A DNA stretch of 64,000 nt. It comes from an uncultured Lachnospiraceae bacterium (GTDB taxonomy: Bacteria > Bacillota > Clostridia > Lachnospirales > Lachnospiraceae). The stretch lies in contig CADBCZ010000019.1 of assembly GCA_902793335.1 (NCBI GenBank), positions 31,702 through 95,701 on the forward strand. The letters are read 5' to 3'. Positions 1 through 7,988 of the stretch are shown here, one piece after another (the stretch's first letter is position 1; every line of letters starts with the position of its first letter). The notes beneath the pieces were generated by a model that was not told where the DNA came from, made no database searches, and worked only from the letters and a program-made list of their open reading frames with translations. A program made the position numbers and the translations under genes.

Positions 1-86
1 CCAAGGCGCTTTGCAAGTTCCTCTCCAATCTCATGTCCAGCGGAGCCAAATTCACGTCCAATAGTTACTATTATCTGTTTTTCCAT
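1..86 (-). CDS. Cytidylate kinase-like family protein, N-terminal part (runs off the left edge)
   Basis: Only the first 28 codons are present. They start with MEKQIIVTIGREFGSAGHEI, the P-loop opening typical of the cytidylate-kinase-like proteins (AAA_26 type) common in Clostridia. These resemble Cmk but often lack a proven nucleotide-kinase role. The ATG at 84-86 is preceded by a strong Shine-Dalgarno sequence (GGAGGGG, plus-strand 92-98). That site overlaps the stop codon of the upstream permease, so the two genes are probably translated from one mRNA. The P-loop is the variant GREFGSAGHE. Function cannot be judged further because the body of the gene lies outside the window. Confidence 0.75.
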   Translation of the reverse strand, partial: MEKQIIVTIGREFGSAGHEIGEELAKRL

Positions 87-97
87 TTAATCCCCTC

Positions 98-1447
98 CTA
101 GCAATATCTTAAATAAATGAGTAGCATAGACATTCCCACTACTATTATAGCCGCAGGTACGGCAGTTTTACAATACTTTCCCCAACTTATAGGATGACCC
201 GCTCTACCGGCTACAGCTGTACCGACTACGTTCGCAGACGCTCCAATCGGAGTTGCAGCTCCACCTATATCCGTTCCGATAGACAATGTCCATGCAAGAG
301 TTGCCTGAAGTGCAGGATTTCCCACTGAAAGTCCTTTAATAATCGGCACCATTGTTGCTGCAAATGGAATATTATCGACAAATGCAGACGCAATAGCCGA
401 TATCCAAATGACGATTGCAATCATGACCTTGGCATTTCCCCCACTCACACGGCTGATAAATCCGGCAATAGCTTCAAGAATTCCTGTTTTCTCAAGGCCG
501 CCTACCACAATAAAGAGACCAAGGAAGAAAAGCAGTATCTTGTAATCCACTTTTGAAAGAATCTCCTTGATGTGCTTTATGTTGAAAATACTTGTTGCCA
601 AAGCTACAGAAGCTCCGATAAATGCAACAGAAAGGTGAGTATTTGCATGAGTTATAAGCATAACGATAGCACACACAAATATAATCGTATTTCCGAAGAA
701 ATAAAACTTGCTGGTTATTGCATCTTTTGGACTTGGCATACTTGAATAATCAATCTCCTCATTTGAGGTTGAAAATTCCTTGCGGTACACCAGATAAAAA
801 TAAATAACTATGACAACGAGACAAATACCCGCGATTACTCCTGTGTTAAGCACGAAATCAATGAAAGAATAATGTAGCTTAGAACCTATGATAATATTTG
901 GTGGATCTCCACACATAGTTGCGGAACCACCTAAGTTTGCACAGAAAATCTCGGACAATATCATCGGCACCGGATTGAAATTGAGCAACTTAGAAAGCTC
1001 AACCGTAACTGCCGCCAAAAACAAAATTACAGTAATACTATCAATAAACATAGAAAGAATTGCCGACACTATCATAAATGTAATAAACAACGGCATTTTC
1101 TTATAAGAAACCATCTTCGCCAAAGTCATGCAAAGCCAGTTAAAGAAGCCGGCCTTACTAAGCCCCTCAACCATTACCATCATTCCACCGAGGAAAATAA
1201 TAGTCGCCCAGTCGATACCTGATGTATCGGGAGCTTCACCAATCCAGAAATTCGGATTGACCAGCGAATAAAAATTCAGCGTGTCCGCAATGGCATCACC
1301 ATCACGCATAATCGCACCAAAAACAACAATAAGCATTATACCTCCACAAGACAGAGTGACCAAATGCTTCTCGAATTTCTCTGATATTACAAGAATGAAC
1401 ATCACGAGAAAAACAATTATTGAACTAATAGCTGCTAAAGACATCAT
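98..1447 (-). CDS. SLC13/ArsB-NhaD-type anion permease (CitMHS domain)
   Basis: A 449-residue, very hydrophobic protein with about 11-12 predicted membrane segments. Two family landmarks can be read: GGSATMCGDPPNIIIGS near residue 175, which matches the first-half GDPPN hairpin of ArsB/NhaD/SLC13 permeases, and the mirrored second-half motif GGAATPIGASANVVG near residue 405. It probably moves a dicarboxylate, sulfate or similar anion across the cytoplasmic membrane, but the substrate cannot be read from sequence. The start is ATG ATG at 1447 with GAGGTAAT just upstream. The next gene on the strand, the cytidylate-kinase-like gene, begins 11 nt after its stop, suggesting an operon. The hydrogenase/GGDEF gene lies 108 nt upstream. 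Confidence 0.85.
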   Translation of the reverse strand: MMSLAAISSIIVFLVMFILVISEKFEKHLVTLSCGGIMLIVVFGAIMRDGDAIADTLNFYSLVNPNFWIGEAPDTSGIDWATIIFLGGMMVMVEGLSKAGFFNWLCMTLAKMVSYKKMPLFITFMIVSAILSMFIDSITVILFLAAVTVELSKLLNFNPVPMILSEIFCANLGGSATMCGDPPNIIIGSKLHYSFIDFVLNTGVIAGICLVVIVIYFYLVYRKEFSTSNEEIDYSSMPSPKDAITSKFYFFGNTIIFVCAIVMLITHANTHLSVAFIGASVALATSIFNIKHIKEILSKVDYKILLFFLGLFIVVGGLEKTGILEAIAGFISRVSGGNAKVMIAIVIWISAIASAFVDNIPFAATMVPIIKGLSVGNPALQATLAWTLSIGTDIGGAATPIGASANVVGTAVAGRAGHPISWGKYCKTAVPAAIIVVGMSMLLIYLRYC

Positions 1448-1555
1448 ATTACCTCACTTTACCTTTAGGTTATTTGGTCTTCAAAAAACCAACGCGATTA
1501 CTATACCACTTCCTCAAGGCAAATACAATGTCTAAAAAAAAATAATTAATCTCGT

Positions 1556-3325
1556 TTACGTCCTTCTTTTCTTTCCGGTCGTCTGGTAATATCTGTCTTT
1601 ATCCTCGTACATCCTTTTGTCTGCAACTGCCAACAGCTCATCCAGATTACCATCAAAATGTTCCGTGCAAGCAAGTCCCATAGATGTACTTACATCAACT
1701 GATGCAAGATATTTTCGCACAAGCTCAATGTCACTTTCTATCTCTGTCTTTCCAAAGTCCTGCAACACAACAAGGAACTCATCTCCCCCTGTTCGAAATA
1801 CCCTTTCAACACCAAACTCATTAGCAAGCGCATGAGCGGTCTCTATTATCAACCTGTCTCCGGCAGCATGTCCACCGGTATCATTAGCATGCTTTAATCC
1901 GTTGACATCTGCCAAAATGATACCGAATAAGCCGCCCTTCGCATAAAGCGATTGAGTCTTTCTCTCATATGCATTTCGATTCATAACTCCGGTAAGCTGA
2001 TCGGAGAAGGACATCTTAGAAAGATACAGACTCTCCTCCTTTTCACTATATACGCAGTTGTGTACAGTGTTGAAACCATTGTGAATCGCTATCATCATCT
2101 CTTCGCATGTCTCATATCCACAAGCAGAGCAATTGATCATTTTCGAGTTATCGGAATCTTTATGTAACTGATGGTATATCTGTGCAGCCTGTTCTTCCGT
2201 CGGATACGATACCTTACACGAACCGCTTAAGTCCTCAAATTCTGTCAGATAATCATCAAGCTCAAGCTCCTCAAACTGCTTATTGAGATTTGCAAGTCTT
2301 TGCTCACATGACAAATCAGGACACCACGGAGAGTCAGGCGAAACCTTCTTACTCTTAGCCCTGATTCGGTTAATCTCCGAAAGACCTCTGTCTTCACGAT
2401 CCTCATCATCAATCTTAGCCGTACCCTCAATACAGCCCTCACGACAATTCAGTGCATCAAACAAAACATATGGCAATGCATTTTCATACAACTTATGATG
2501 GTTCTTTCCAAATTGCTGATATAGATAGGTCTTTCCCGAAATTTCCCTGATCGGTGTATCATCACCCAAAAACCATTTAACATTATCTGCAAGACCACCG
2601 GGTGCAGGATAAAATGTGCCAAGTCCTGCATCAAGCCCATCAAAGTCATCCTCATCAGAAAGACTGTGTTTTTCCACATATTCCATCAACTTAGGAAAAG
2701 TCACGTTATACTGTATCAGTTCAGGATACTTATCCATCTCCATGCGCTTAGCGATGCAAGGTCCGATAAATGCGAACTTATCCGTTATACCCATCTGTTT
2801 CTTAAAATACTGTGCCACACACATCATAGGACTTTTCACAGGCATAAGCTGTCCTATCAGCTCAGGCATCCAGTGTTCAACATATGAAGTCACCACAGGA
2901 CAGGTCGTGGAAATCTTTCCAACACAACTTCTCTCCTGAATCATTTTCAGATACGCCCATGTGCAGATATCAGCACCAAGTGATACCGGGTATATATGTT
3001 TTACGCCAAGCGCCTTTAATACACCCAACACCTTCTTGTATTCTTTCGGATACTTAGCCTCAAACGAAGGAGCAATAAGCAATGAAATCGCTTCTCCATT
3101 TTGAAGATCTTTGAAAAACTGTTCAGTATCATCATGATACTCTCTGGCGTTATGGGTACAAACATCGATACACGCACCACAATTAATACAACGTTCGGAA
3201 TTGATCTCAATCGAATAATGATCCGGTCTGTTATGCGATATACTCGCACCAAACGACGAACAGATACGAACACATTTATTACATCCAATACAATTCTCAT
3301 TAGTGAAAATCAAACCATTATTCAT
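1556..3325 (-). CDS. Iron-hydrogenase-like sensor fused to a GGDEF diguanylate cyclase
   Basis: A 589-residue fusion. Residues about 9-60 hold two 4Fe-4S ferredoxin motifs (C12, C15, C18, C22, then CINCGACIDVC). Residues about 80-330 are an iron-only hydrogenase large-subunit domain. Near residue 390 is a short CSACGYETC iron-sulfur motif, and residues about 432-586 form a GGDEF domain with DQLTGVMNRNAYE, the Mg/GTP segment DVNGLKHAND and an intact GGDEF. The four H-cluster cubane cysteines are kept (TTCP, GPC, CREGC), but the proton-relay cysteine of catalytic enzymes (TSCCP) is threonine. This is the pattern of sensory rather than H2-producing hydrogenases. No RxxD inhibitory site precedes GGDEF. 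Inferred role: redox- or H2-dependent cyclic-di-GMP synthesis. It lies 29 nt after the carboxyltransferase gene and may share its transcript. Confidence 0.85.
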   Translation of the reverse strand: MNNGLIFTNENCIGCNKCVRICSSFGASISHNRPDHYSIEINSERCINCGACIDVCTHNAREYHDDTEQFFKDLQNGEAISLLIAPSFEAKYPKEYKKVLGVLKALGVKHIYPVSLGADICTWAYLKMIQERSCVGKISTTCPVVTSYVEHWMPELIGQLMPVKSPMMCVAQYFKKQMGITDKFAFIGPCIAKRMEMDKYPELIQYNVTFPKLMEYVEKHSLSDEDDFDGLDAGLGTFYPAPGGLADNVKWFLGDDTPIREISGKTYLYQQFGKNHHKLYENALPYVLFDALNCREGCIEGTAKIDDEDREDRGLSEINRIRAKSKKVSPDSPWCPDLSCEQRLANLNKQFEELELDDYLTEFEDLSGSCKVSYPTEEQAAQIYHQLHKDSDNSKMINCSACGYETCEEMMIAIHNGFNTVHNCVYSEKEESLYLSKMSFSDQLTGVMNRNAYERKTQSLYAKGGLFGIILADVNGLKHANDTGGHAAGDRLIIETAHALANEFGVERVFRTGGDEFLVVLQDFGKTEIESDIELVRKYLASVDVSTSMGLACTEHFDGNLDELLAVADKRMYEDKDRYYQTTGKKRRT

Positions 3326-3354
3326 AAATACCCCACCCCATTCTTTATCAGATA

Positions 3355-4899
3355 TTATAATGGTATATTTCCATGTTTTTTATAAGGTCTTGATACACTC
3401 TTAGTCTTTAATACATCAAGCGCTGCAACAATCTTATCTCTGGTCTCATCAGGACGGATAACCTCATCCACAAAACCTCTTCTTGCTGCTGTATATGGAT
3501 TTAAGAATTTCTCCTCATATTTCTCTATAAGTTCTGCCCGCTTTGCTTCAGGATCTTCTGCTTCATTTATCTGCTTTCTACCTATTATATTGATTGCCCC
3601 GCTCGCGCCCATAACAGCAATCTCAGCGATAGGCCAAGCATAGACTATATCAGCACCCATATGTTTTGAGTTCATTGCTATATACGCTCCACCATATGCC
3701 TTTCTCATAATAAGTGTAATCTTCGGCACAGTAGCCTCTGCATAAGCAAAGAGAATCTTTGCTCCATGTCTGATAATTCCATTGTGCTCCTGTTCTGAAC
3801 CCGGTAAAAACGCAGGCACATCAACCAATGAGACAATTGGAATATTAAAGCAGTCACAGAATCTTATAAATCTCGCCATCTTATCAGATGCGTCAATATC
3901 TAAAGAGCCACCCTTATGATTTGCCTGATTGCATACAAAACCTACGGTATTGCCATCAATCCTTCCAAATCCTACAACAGCGTTTTTTGCCCAGTGCTTC
4001 TGCACCTCAAAAAAGCTCTCTCTGTCTATCATTGCATTGATAACGTCATGTACATCGTATGACTTCTTCTTGTTATCCGGTACAAGATTAGTAAGGCAAT
4101 TGCAATGATTAACAGCCTTACCCTGTTTAACCGGTAACGGAGACTGATTATTGTCAGGAAGATATGACAATAATTCTCTTACTCCTCCAAGACAGTTCTT
4201 CTCACTTTTATAATAGAAATGAGCCACACCGGATTTCTCAGCATGTGTCAAAGCTCCACCAAGCTCATCAGCTGTGAGTTCCTCACCTATAACCGTCTTA
4301 ACTACCTGTGGTCCTGTGATGAACATTTTACTAACATCTTCAACAACAAAGATGTAATCACATATAGCCGGCGAATAACATGCGCCTCCCGAACATGGTC
4401 CAAGTATTACCGCAATCTGAGGAATCACTCCTGATGCGATAGTATTTCTCTCAAATATTCCGGAATATCCGCTAAGTGAATCTATTCCTTCTTCAATTCT
4501 TGCTCCACCACTATCATTGATAGTTACGATAGGACACTTCATTTTAAGTGCCATGTCCTGAATATGAACAATCTTTCTAGAATGATATTCACCAAGACTT
4601 CCTCCAATTACCGTAAAATCCTCTGAAGATGCAAAGACAGTTCTTCCGTTAATCTTACCGTATCCAGTAATTACACCATCACCCGGAACTCTTTTCTTAT
4701 CAAGTCCAAAATCATCTATTCTGGATTCAACAAGATCATTTATCTCAACAAACGTTCCCTCATCAAACAGTATATCGAGCCTCTCTCTTGCGGTAAGCTT
4801 TCCTTTCTCATGCTGCTTTTCAATTGCAGTCTGTCCCCCACCAAGCCTTGCCTTGCCACGTCTGGCTTCCAATTCTTCTATTGCTTCATTCCAATTCAT
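3355..4899 (-). CDS. Acyl-CoA carboxyltransferase (propionyl-/methylmalonyl-CoA type)
   Basis: A 514-residue carboxyl-transferase-domain protein (PccB/MmdA family). Signatures include GKLTARERLDILFDEGTF near the start, the oxyanion-hole segment SGGARIEEG, GPCSGGACYSPA, PAFLPGSEQEHNGIIRHGAK in the second crotonase-fold half, and the family-typical ending KKHGNIPL. It transfers carboxyl groups between biotin and an acyl-CoA, either in a cytosolic carboxylase or as the alpha subunit of a Na-pumping decarboxylase. No biotin carrier, carboxylase or beta/gamma subunit is encoded nearby, so these cannot be told apart. I chose ATG 4899 because GGAGGA lies 7 nt before it. An upstream in-frame TTG would place that Shine-Dalgarno inside the gene. 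Confidence 0.88.
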   Translation of the reverse strand: MNWNEAIEELEARRGKARLGGGQTAIEKQHEKGKLTARERLDILFDEGTFVEINDLVESRIDDFGLDKKRVPGDGVITGYGKINGRTVFASSEDFTVIGGSLGEYHSRKIVHIQDMALKMKCPIVTINDSGGARIEEGIDSLSGYSGIFERNTIASGVIPQIAVILGPCSGGACYSPAICDYIFVVEDVSKMFITGPQVVKTVIGEELTADELGGALTHAEKSGVAHFYYKSEKNCLGGVRELLSYLPDNNQSPLPVKQGKAVNHCNCLTNLVPDNKKKSYDVHDVINAMIDRESFFEVQKHWAKNAVVGFGRIDGNTVGFVCNQANHKGGSLDIDASDKMARFIRFCDCFNIPIVSLVDVPAFLPGSEQEHNGIIRHGAKILFAYAEATVPKITLIMRKAYGGAYIAMNSKHMGADIVYAWPIAEIAVMGASGAINIIGRKQINEAEDPEAKRAELIEKYEEKFLNPYTAARRGFVDEVIRPDETRDKIVAALDVLKTKSVSRPYKKHGNIPL

Positions 4900-4974
4900 G
4901 TCACATTCCTCCAAGTTATAAACAAAAAATAACTACGATTCTTATATTGCAATTAGTTTCGTAAACATCAAATT

Positions 4975-5003
4975 ATTTTGCCATGCGAAAGATATTTTGT
5001 CAA
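4975..5003 (-). promoter_or_regulatory. Likely promoter of the carboxyltransferase gene
   Basis: On the minus strand TTGACA (4998-5003) is separated by 17 bp from CAAAAT (4975-4980, four of six -10 positions). Transcription would start about 70 nt before the carboxyltransferase ATG. Assigned by consensus matching only. Confidence 0.45.
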
Positions 5004-5022
5004 CCAACATCTTCTATAGGTA

Positions 5023-5205
5023 TTAAATCTTAGGTCTTTTTATCCTATCCTGTTTTATTATTACATTCAGGTTGCCTCTCGAAAAATCATCAAAATCACC
5101 TTTAGTGTTACCAAGATCATTAGAATCCTTAACCATTATTGATACAATAAAAATAGCGGCAGCACATCCAAAAAATACGCCTAATATTATAACAAAAAAT
5201 CCCAT
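5023..5205 (-). CDS. Small single-pass membrane protein
   Basis: A 60-residue protein with one N-terminal membrane helix (residues about 3-24, FFVIILGVFFGCAAAIFIVS) and a charged cytoplasmic-type tail ending KQDRIKRPKI. GGAGG precedes the ATG at an ideal distance. It begins 11 nt after the stop of the zinc-ribbon membrane protein gene, so the two are almost certainly co-transcribed and may act together. No family was recognised. Confidence 0.65.
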   Translation of the reverse strand: MGFFVIILGVFFGCAAAIFIVSIMVKDSNDLGNTKGDFDDFSRGNLNVIIKQDRIKRPKI

Positions 5206-5216
5206 TGTAAACCTCC

Positions 5217-6590
5217 TTACTGCCCTCGATTTTTAACAAAATTATTAGTTTCGGAAAGACTGGTCAGCGTTGCACTCTCTTTGACCTTCTTAAGATTATT
5301 TATTCCGATACCAAGTCCTGTAACTGCAAGTATAATGCAGGTTACGATAAGTTTAATCGCTTCATCTAAATCAATATCCACTAAGAGGAAAGTTAAAATA
5401 AAGAAAGCTATTATCGAAAATATCGTAGCAAAAATCGCAAACGAAACAGCAACCTTAGTTCTGTCATACGGCACTCCACCTATTATCTTTTCCGTCTGAC
5501 CGTTTACAAGCAAAGTATATGGAACGTCCTCATATCGGAATGTAAGAAACCATGCAGGGAACATTGCATATTCCGTCCTTAATATCTTATAATCGGGATC
5601 TTTTTTCAAAACAGATATGTCATGAGCCTCAATCGTTTTTTCGACAGCACCCTGAAACAGTTCTCCCGCCCTTGATACAGCAAGTCTTTCAAGCTGGGAA
5701 GTATTAACATCATAAGTATCAGCATAAAAACCCGAAAGATATTCTATCGAAAAATCCTTCATATCCTTCGTGTAATATGGTTCCAATCGCTGTGATGACT
5801 CATCATTTAACTGCCGGGATGCATCAAGCGTAAGTTTTACAAACTCACAATCTGCCTCTCGGAAATAATAGTATGTATGAGAGTTCTTACCACTTCCAAC
5901 CGTACCTTTTAAATACTGCGAATCATGGTAATATATATCATAAAGCCAGAACGGAATATAGATACCTCTTACTCTTTCTATCTCAAAATTCTTAATCGCC
6001 GCAGGAACGAAAAATCCTGAGTTTAATTTTTCACGAATACGGCTTATAGCATGCTCCTTTGTCACCGAAAATGGAATTATGTATTTCGGTTTCTTCTGTG
6101 ATGCCACACGGTTAAACACAACTGTCGGCTGTCCACAGAAAGAACAGAAAGTCGAAGCTTCAACGTTATTAATTGCAACCTCTGCACCACATGAGGTACA
6201 TGTGTAGATATTACACTCCATGGTTTCTTCCATGTCTTCGGTATTTTGATAATCTTCCTGCGAATATACATCCGTGTGGTCAAATACCGGATGGTCAAAA
6301 TCACTATTGGGATTGAAGGCGGGTTCCGGATTAAATGTCGGTCTTATCGGAGTGCTCTGCTCCACAGCTTTTTCAACAGCAGCACCGACACCTCCTCCTG
6401 CAAGTTTAAGACCGGATGTCGCAGTGGCTTCTGCTTTTTCTTCACGTTCTAATTCTTTCTGTCCGCGTTTCTCGAAATCCTCTTGAAGCTCATATGTCTC
6501 AAAGACGCTGTCACAGGCTTCACATTTCATCTTCCCTGATTCCGGATCAAACATAAGACCCGCACCGCAAGCAGGACAATCTATTATCAT
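5217..6590 (-). CDS. TFIIB-type zinc-ribbon membrane protein
   Basis: A 457-residue protein with an N-terminal zinc ribbon (CPACGAGLMF then KCEACDSVF) and a second cysteine pair near residue 130 (CTSCGAEV and CSFCGQP). A long soluble region contains aromatic-rich segments (IPFWLYDIYYHD). Two membrane helices follow near residues 380-430 (AIFATIFSIIAFFILTFLLV and VTCIILAVTGLGIGI). Proteins of this plan are frequent in Lachnospiraceae; no biochemical role is known to me. The ATG at 6590 opens the conserved MIIDCPACGAGL segment. It leads a two-gene unit with the 60-residue membrane protein downstream. Confidence 0.75.
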   Translation of the reverse strand: MIIDCPACGAGLMFDPESGKMKCEACDSVFETYELQEDFEKRGQKELEREEKAEATATSGLKLAGGGVGAAVEKAVEQSTPIRPTFNPEPAFNPNSDFDHPVFDHTDVYSQEDYQNTEDMEETMECNIYTCTSCGAEVAINNVEASTFCSFCGQPTVVFNRVASQKKPKYIIPFSVTKEHAISRIREKLNSGFFVPAAIKNFEIERVRGIYIPFWLYDIYYHDSQYLKGTVGSGKNSHTYYYFREADCEFVKLTLDASRQLNDESSQRLEPYYTKDMKDFSIEYLSGFYADTYDVNTSQLERLAVSRAGELFQGAVEKTIEAHDISVLKKDPDYKILRTEYAMFPAWFLTFRYEDVPYTLLVNGQTEKIIGGVPYDRTKVAVSFAIFATIFSIIAFFILTFLLVDIDLDEAIKLIVTCIILAVTGLGIGINNLKKVKESATLTSLSETNNFVKNRGQ

Positions 6591-7339: not shown

Positions 7340-7705
7340 ATGTCACAATATAAAGTGGATTTTTATAAAGAAGCAGATGGTAAAAAACCACTAGGAACAT
7401 TTATCAAATCACTTGATATCAGGATGAAAGCAAAAGTGGTTGCCAGTCTTTCTCTTCTTGAAGAATATGGCAATATGGCAAGAGAACCCTTAAGCAAACA
7501 TCTAGAAGATGGAATATTCGAATTAAGGGTAATCGAAAGTAAAAATATTGTAAGAATATTGTATTTTTTTGATTGTGATCGAATAATAATTGCAACAAAT
7601 GGTTTTATAAAAACGACTAATAAAACACCACGTAGTGAAATCAGTCTAGCAAAACAAAGGAGAGCTATTTATTTTAGCAGAAAGGAGGCAAGTAAAAATG
7701 AGTGA
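7340..7705 (+). CDS. higB: HigB/RelE-superfamily toxin (phage Gp49-like)
   Basis: A 121-residue basic protein of the Gp49-like (PF05973) branch of RelE-type mRNA interferases. It has a KVDFYKEADGKKPLGTFIKSL start, the central LEDGIFELRV strand, and the IVRILYFFDCDRIIIATNGF core followed by a K/R-rich tail. Such toxins cut mRNA on the ribosome and are neutralised by a partner antitoxin. AGAGAGGAG precedes the ATG. The last 8 nt overlap the antitoxin gene, the usual toxin-first higBA order, which supports translational coupling. The toxin looks full length and intact. Confidence 0.85.
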   Translation: MSQYKVDFYKEADGKKPLGTFIKSLDIRMKAKVVASLSLLEEYGNMAREPLSKHLEDGIFELRVIESKNIVRILYFFDCDRIIIATNGFIKTTNKTPRSEISLAKQRRAIYFSRKEASKNE

Positions 7706-7988
7706 CCTACAACAGTTAAAAGATGAATTAATGCAGAATCCCGAATTTAGAAAAGAGTACGAATCCCTACAACCAGAAATGGATATTACAAGGGTATTAT
7801 TGAATGCACGTATAAAAGCAGGATTATCTCAAATGGAGCTTGCAGAAAAAACAGGAATAAGTCAGGCCGACATAAGCAGATTAGAAAATGGAACAAGAAA
7901 TCCTAGTCTTGCATTACTCAAACGACTTGCAACCGCAATGGACAGTACATTAAAAATCGAGTTTATACCCAATCAAAAATTAATATAA
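7698..7988 (+). CDS. higA: HigA/XRE-type antitoxin
   Basis: A 96-residue protein with a C-terminal XRE helix-turn-helix (LLNARIKAGLSQMELAEKTG followed by ISQADISRLENGTRNPS). It overlaps the toxin gene by 8 nt, and an AAAGGAGG-type ribosome site lies inside the toxin's 3' end. It should bind and inhibit the toxin and repress the shared promoter through the 7307-7326 palindrome; both are inferences from the family. Confidence 0.87.
   Translation: MSDLQQLKDELMQNPEFRKEYESLQPEMDITRVLLNARIKAGLSQMELAEKTGISQADISRLENGTRNPSLALLKRLATAMDSTLKIEFIPNQKLI

Follow-up and report, generated by a model that had tools for sequence, protein, structure and literature searches.

What does an [FeFe]-hydrogenase domain do in front of a diguanylate cyclase? 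The question is raised by a gene in the window, the 64,000-nucleotide stretch of DNA from an uncultured Lachnospiraceae bacterium that was analyzed here. Two papers (PMC8924675, PMC13104023) term putative both the stimulus of sensory [FeFe]-hydrogenases and the way in which the signal exits the protein, and the two characterized examples that they name lack an easily read output; the former paper also calls H2 sensing by group C enzymes putative. A soluble output enzyme with a simple product would offer a one-tube assay format, with H2 in and c-di-GMP out. Based on the domain order, the cofactor ligands, the intact GGDEF motif, their conservation, the modular outputs of the relatives and, in the host genome, HydF, hydrogenases of groups A and B and a YcgR-type protein, we propose with a probability of roughly 0.6 that the window protein is a soluble diguanylate cyclase that would respond to H2 or redox state.

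Domain organization of the window protein

The gene is a single open reading frame with an ATG start and no internal stop (Table 1). Pfam places a 4Fe-4S dicluster at residues 11-60 (Fer4_7, E 1.5e-8), Fe_hyd_lg_C (PF02906) at residues 83-301 (E 2e-23, 83.7 bits against a cut-off of 22.1), the FeS domain PF04060 at residues 397-426 (E 1.4e-5, 25.2 bits against 23) and GGDEF (PF00990) at residues 440-577 (E 2.6e-19, 70 bits against 23.8). This is the order given in an earlier note on the same DNA (2x4Fe4S, H-cluster domain, cysteine cluster, GGDEF), which had also recognized the four cubane cysteines (C142, C190, C294 and C298) and a threonine, T141, in place of the group A proton-relay cysteine; both readings were confirmed. 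The Pfam match and the cubane cysteines together identify the H-domain, and the GGDEF domain, with GG[DE]EF intact at 513-517, has the sequence of a diguanylate cyclase. The positions that we take to be equivalent to C299, M353 and M497 of CpI (numbering from PMC10055695) were placed by motif matching. The RxxD of an I-site, at its usual spacing, is absent ahead of the window GGDEF in the alignment, as the note had stated, and by eye none was found at that spacing in any of the aligned GGDEF-only proteins.

Table 1. Features of the hydrogenase-GGDEF gene, in window coordinates
Feature	Position	Strand	Basis or remark
Sensory-type [FeFe]-hydrogenase/diguanylate cyclase fusion, whole gene	1556..3325	-	589 aa; 15 near-full-length orthologues
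Ferredoxin-like domain at the N terminus with two 4Fe-4S motifs (residues 9-60; C12 C15 C18 C22, C46 C49 C52 C56)	3146..3301	-	Pfam and alignment
H-cluster domain Fe_hyd_lg_C (residues 83-301)	2423..3079	-	Pfam; model matches [FeFe]-hydrogenase structures
C142, first cubane ligand; T141 before it at the CpI C299 proton-relay position	2900..2902	-	Alignment
C190, second cubane ligand, within GPCIAKRME; G188 at the CpI M353 position	2756..2758	-	Alignment
C294, third cubane ligand; L292 in place of CpI M497	2444..2446	-	Alignment
C298, fourth cubane ligand	2432..2434	-	Alignment
C-terminal cluster domain Cx2Cx4Cx16C (residues 397-426; C399 C402 C407 C424)	2048..2137	-	Pfam PF04060; spacing as in groups C/D (PMC8163306)
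Linker helix, residues 425-438, from last cluster cysteine to GGDEF	2012..2053	-	Predicted helix; alignment
GGDEF diguanylate cyclase domain (residues 440-577)	1595..2008	-	Pfam
GGDEF motif, residues 513-517; upstream I-site RxxD absent	1775..1789	-	Sequence and alignment

The cysteines that follow the H-domain have the Cx2Cx4Cx16C spacing that PMC8163306 describes for both sensory groups, C and D. The replacement of the relay cysteine by T141 is likewise of the sensory type: this cysteine is given as present in only 17% of sensory enzymes (PMC10055695), which usually lack it and both methionines of the CpI C299/M353/M497 set (PMC10055695; PMC8163306, PMC11803613). A PAS domain after the cluster, as in group C enzymes of the TmHydS type, was not found among 20 Pfam families to E 1, and the link to MCP that characterizes HydDB group C2 is not seen inside the window protein, the output being GGDEF. 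An AlphaFold2 model built from 31 aligned sequences (mean pLDDT 87.1, pTM 0.74) has a helix at residues 425-438 running from the last cluster cysteine to GGDEF. A structure search with the model gave 169 PDB matches at E <= 0.001, and the 50 listed are all [FeFe]-hydrogenases or complexes holding one (TM-score by target <=0.63), with no GGDEF structure among these 50.

Conservation of the fusion

An alignment-based profile scan of genome contigs confirmed at least 452 stretches, and the best 80 loci were kept. Among these 80 there are at least 15 GGDEF-only orthologues that span nearly the whole window protein at 44-74% identity, 14 of them with a stop codon; L074 reaches the edge of its contig before any stop codon, and a further GGDEF-type relative, L066, is broken off at residue 456. 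According to their records, the orthologue hosts belong to Clostridia, Coriobacteriia, one 'actinobacterium', Erysipelotrichia, Bacillales and Negativicutes. Selenomonas bovis DSM 23594 is the sole isolate, the rest being uncultured or MAG records. The G+C content of gene and flanks differs by <=0.05 in 16 of 17 loci (the exception, L077, has 0.64 versus 0.55), so the genes fit their own contigs, an agreement that bears on the contigs and says nothing on MAG naming. The draft assembly of the window's genome, in 157 contigs, could in principle have joined two genes in assembly or binning, but the chance of this is negligible: it is refuted by the 15 near-full-length orthologues that carry the fusion too, including one from an isolate, and the adjoining carboxyltransferase is typical of the genus, with up to 95% identity in other species. 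The fusion is not a chimera, and its recurrence in these orthologues is beyond chance.

Conservation was read from an alignment of 29 proteins, comprising the window protein, 17 GGDEF-only proteins and 11 GGDEF-EAL proteins. The four cubane cysteines and the four cysteines of the C-terminal cluster are invariant in all 29, and of the eight N-terminal cysteines C18 alone varies, once (C18Y in L119). P189 and E196 are also invariant and K193 is kept in 27 of 29. The relay position is occupied by T, P, S or R, never by Cys. The GGDEF letters are intact in 18/18 GGDEF-only proteins and in 1/11 GGDEF-EAL proteins. The occurrence of degenerate GGDEF domains in these sister proteins would suit a reading in which the GGDEF of the window protein only binds GTP or serves for docking, with no cyclase activity. 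We consider this improbable, since the GGDEF motif and the GLK, ND, GH and GD letters around it persist in the window's 16 GGDEF proteins even where identity falls to ~44%, and since without an I-site the domain is not an I-site receptor. Given GGDEF letters that are intact in one branch and degenerate beside EAL matches in the other, the GGDEF-only branch is predicted to keep the cyclase and the GGDEF-EAL branch the phosphodiesterase. In L053 (G193), of the GGDEF-EAL type, the pocket lysine is replaced (K193I) and the branch is very long; this protein may no longer have an H-cluster.

Comparison with catalytic and sensory hydrogenases

The window protein scores far below the curated cut-offs of both catalytic families, with 78 bits of the 405.95 needed for group A (TIGR02512) and 134.3 of the 450 needed for group B (TIGR04105). 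Group letters A-D on the tree rows were assigned here by motif, independently of labeled TmHydS or TamHydS references; in an NCBIfam check of four A/B rows, L001 and L146 pass the threshold of group A, L002 passes that of group B and L198 falls short of the latter. In a quick tree of 97 rows, the window protein groups with all four kinds of output in a single starred 66-row clade that excludes the A-, B-, C- and D-like rows. In a careful tree of 75 rows, it is placed within starred clades that hold 4, 10 and 16 rows; all their members are of the GGDEF type except for the kinase protein L005 in the 16-row clade. Another GGDEF protein, L086, is nested within a kinase clade (100/99, starred), and L197 stands outside the starred nodes, with weakly supported placement on a long branch. 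The quick tree, together with the scores, bears out the claim that the hydrogenase is sensory-type rather than catalytic. That TmHydS and TamHydS are reported to turn H2 over (PMC8163306) and that two relatives (L046, L057) have no recognized output domain would be in line with a low-rate catalytic hydrogenase to which the fusion is incidental. Such an enzyme is, however, very unlikely in view of the unmet A and B cut-offs, the position of the A- and B-like rows outside the window clade, and the signaling output of 130/130 classified relatives, a count in which only output-bearing proteins were classified.

As described in the literature, TmHydS of Thermotoga maritima (group C/M2f) shares with the window protein two N-terminal 4Fe-4S motifs, a residue other than Cys at the relay position, a Gly in place of M353 and, together with other group C/M2f enzymes, the C-terminal Cx2Cx4Cx16C before the output. 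It differs at the relay position (Ala, versus Thr in the window protein) and at the M497 position (Ser versus Leu), and it has a PAS domain with no GGDEF described. TamHydS of Thermoanaerobacter mathranii (group D/M2e) has the same FeS layout, the same Cx2Cx4Cx16C and Leu at the M497 position. In contrast to the window protein it is without an output domain, with Ala at the relay position and Ser at the M353 position where the window protein has Thr and Gly; the group D proton path is given as E252-E289-S249-D265 in PMC10407848. The D-like rows, so labeled by motif, form a starred clade separate from the window sensor.

The earlier note gave the known outputs of sensory iron hydrogenases as PAS or SpoIIE-like domains. 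This list is incomplete, as HydDB already includes histidine-kinase-linked (C1), chemotactic (C2) and phosphatase-linked (C3) enzymes under [FeFe] group C. Diguanylate cyclase does not figure in that [FeFe] table; a cyclase link stands only under [NiFe] group 2c (putative), which rests on a like concept, the coupling of H2 sensing to the making of c-di-GMP, in a nickel-iron enzyme unrelated to the [FeFe] enzyme of the window. Among the open-access papers listed, subscription journals being mostly outside the survey, the titles and abstract openings mention no [FeFe]-hydrogenase whose output is GGDEF or c-di-GMP. This suggests that the window fusion is a sensory [FeFe]-hydrogenase with an output new to that kind, although silence of the literature is no proof of absence.

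Range of output domains and origin of the GGDEF fusion

Outputs were classified against five reference domains (phmmer) in 130 of 141 loci, which are best matches to the window and not a random sample, and among which duplicates across collections may remain. Left out were the catalytic hydrogenases L001 and L002, copies of the window gene (L003, L004), the truncated L066, L078 (same as L005), three loci with in-frame stops (L007, L024, L130), and L046 and L057, in which no output domain was recognized. The 130 comprise MCP in 64, kinase in 26, GGDEF plus EAL in 24 and GGDEF only in 16, and Pfam on ten representatives gave the same outputs as the reference-domain classes. With MCP as the commonest output of the clade in which its sensor is nested, the window protein is probably a relative of the putative chemotactic group C2 of HydDB, judging from the outputs of its nearest relatives. 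The combination of the same sensor with a degenerate GGDEF and EAL (L037, L053, L079, L083, L084 and others, 24/130) is predicted to be an H2/redox-controlled c-di-GMP phosphodiesterase; the EAL matches come from Pfam for L037 and L053 and from phmmer for the others. Two entries of the window clade, L007/L130 (one gene, Roseburia hominis An869) and L024, have an in-frame stop in their sensory hydrogenase genes and are perhaps pseudogenes.

Ten further sensors from other families of the phylum were read for outputs at E 1e-6. They include PAS (L182), GAF plus kinase (L192), kinase (L202) and a further hydrogenase-GGDEF fusion, L197 (GGDEF E 1.4e-37), while no output domain was found in three of the ten at this threshold. 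In L189 (1756-3945, -) and L190 (2159-4384, +), a C-like sensory hydrogenase is joined to a sigma-54 AAA+ activator with HTH_8, making a one-protein hydrogenase-type transcription factor. L193 (2490-5867, +) has a sensory hydrogenase with a CheA-like kinase region (kinase ATPase) and a CheX phosphatase domain.

On the careful tree, the GGDEF-only label changes 4 times (bootstrap 4-4; the starred branches force 4; the shuffled mean is 16.4), so hydrogenase-GGDEF coupling recurs. The changes would most simply be three separate fusions and one loss, the count by itself being blind to gain versus loss. As the pairing recurs in several bacterial groups, fermenters may tune their behavior to H2 or redox state. 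A wider generalization, to which we give slightly less than even odds, is that one interchangeable H2-sensing [FeFe]-hydrogenase module governs motility and sessile life in anaerobic gut bacteria, wired by lineage to c-di-GMP synthesis, c-di-GMP breakdown, chemotaxis receptors or kinases, with fermentation H2 as a direct behavioral signal.

Distribution of the cyclase form

The sensor was found in 64 of 397 family genomes at E <= 1e-110, weaker relatives lying below this cut-off. The match runs past residue 500 in the window's genome and four others, and GGDEF alone occurs only in the window's; the other four are EAL or MCP types (L037, L206, L213 and L212; L206 and L213 by eye), and two shortened matches (G730, G702) fall outside the GGDEF verdict. 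In the phylum set of 398 genomes, the sensor is present at E <= 1e-60 in 18, of which two, the window's and G252 (L197), carry GGDEF alone. Another four phylum matches were read in sequence and the remainder judged from frame length and match range. Frame length alone misleads: L208 and L209, with 572 aa and 576 aa, are short MCP types by eye. Within the genus, 15 of 26 genomes have the sensor and the match enters GGDEF only in the window's; in the 14 of 25 other genomes with the sensor at E <= 1e-60, no match was found beyond query residue 451. The cyclase form is rare and patchy, which is consistent with transfer or repeated swapping.

Host genome and proposed mechanism

The genome encodes three Fe_hyd_lg_C proteins, namely the fusion and two others, of which one passes the NCBIfam threshold of group A and the second that of group B. 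With these two catalytic types beside the fusion, the host is probably an H2 producer with a single sensory-type hydrogenase. The maturase HydF was also found (555.6 bits versus a cut-off of 325.55). GGDEF is matched 31 times, with 30 of the matches over cut-off, EAL 15 times and PilZ once. An intact-looking diguanylate cyclase as the putative output of a sensory-type hydrogenase, in a genome rich in c-di-GMP proteins, is supported at the level of sequence. The single PilZ protein has a PilZNR domain, 'Flagellar protein YcgR' (E 1.5e-15), and is encoded between the genes for a MinD-like ATPase and a CheB methylesterase. Its sequence contains RRxxxR and DxSxxG, motifs that usually contact c-di-GMP. 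With a YcgR-type protein beside cheB, motility is a plausible target of c-di-GMP here.

In the proposed mechanism, the H-cluster would be inserted by Hyd maturases, of which HydF was found. The H-cluster domain would then bind H2, the presumed stimulus, or track the cellular redox state, at low turnover, and its state may induce a conformational change in the C-terminal [4Fe-4S] domain and in the 14-residue helix leading out of it. In a putative dimer, the helix would reposition two GGDEF domains so that GTP is condensed, or not, to c-di-GMP, depending on the direction of control that is assumed. The lack of an I-site would remove the usual product inhibition and leave the output to be set by the sensor, and c-di-GMP may act on motility through the YcgR-type PilZ protein. 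If this is true, the H2 levels of rumen and gut, central to methane formation, would be tied to c-di-GMP-controlled motility.

The protein could instead be a sensor of redox state (or of O2/CO), with the clusters or the H-cluster poised with the ferredoxin/NADH state, GGDEF reporting it, and H2 as one of several inputs. Three accessory cluster motifs beside the H-cluster, the slow turnover expected when the relay cysteine is absent, and the report that not only H2 but also photoreduction alters the secondary structure of TamHydS (PMC13104023) speak for it. A pure FeS redox sensor, however, would have no need of an H-cluster pocket, and across the 29 aligned proteins no change is seen in the cubane cysteines, P189 or E196, and K193 is kept in 27/29. 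We regard this alternative as unlikely, yet the most serious of those considered, and prefer the H2/redox-responsive cyclase.

Gene neighborhood

The fusion gene lies 29 nt from the upstream carboxyltransferase ORF (3355..4914, -), the distance read in the earlier note, which had taken the adjacency as a hint of metabolic coupling. The ORF is mmdA-like (781 bits, under the 998.8 cut-off), and the carboxyltransferase occurs in 22 of 26 genus genomes, with 86-95% identity outside the window's genome. The fusion gene was found beside it in 0/10 sister-species stretches, eight of which run on for kilobases downstream and two (L246, L248) stop within 250 nt. In the relatives' loci, with flanks up to 4 kb (16 with >=2.6 kb upstream, L069 with 289 nt), no carboxyltransferase match was found in any of 17. 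Since the adjacency was seen only in the window and in none of the eight readable sister stretches or the 17 relatives' loci, the idea of coupling to the acyl-CoA carboxyltransferase was dropped. By eye, the gene downstream of the carboxyltransferase differs between two sisters, being signal-peptide-peptidase-like in L253 and IspE-like in L247. In L254, a GGDEF-domain match (query residues 435-587, 40%) lies ~3 kb from the carboxyltransferase, without a hydrogenase part.

Across 16 orthologue loci and the window, no neighbor family occurs in more than three loci and none ties the gene to H2 metabolism. A promoter and terminator scan of window positions 1-5400 gave chance-level counts (18 versus 16.9 expected, and 3 versus 2.9), and Rfam over the window gave 0 matches at the gathering threshold. 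Two overlapping small ORFs at 7340-7988 (+), of 121 and 96 aa, look by eye like a toxin-antitoxin pair (RelE/HigB-like plus helix-turn-helix). At 5217-6590 (-), the window encodes a 457-aa protein whose N-terminus, with CxxC, resembles a zinc ribbon and for which Pfam gave no match at E 1e-5; a relative of this protein is encoded near the orthologue L075.
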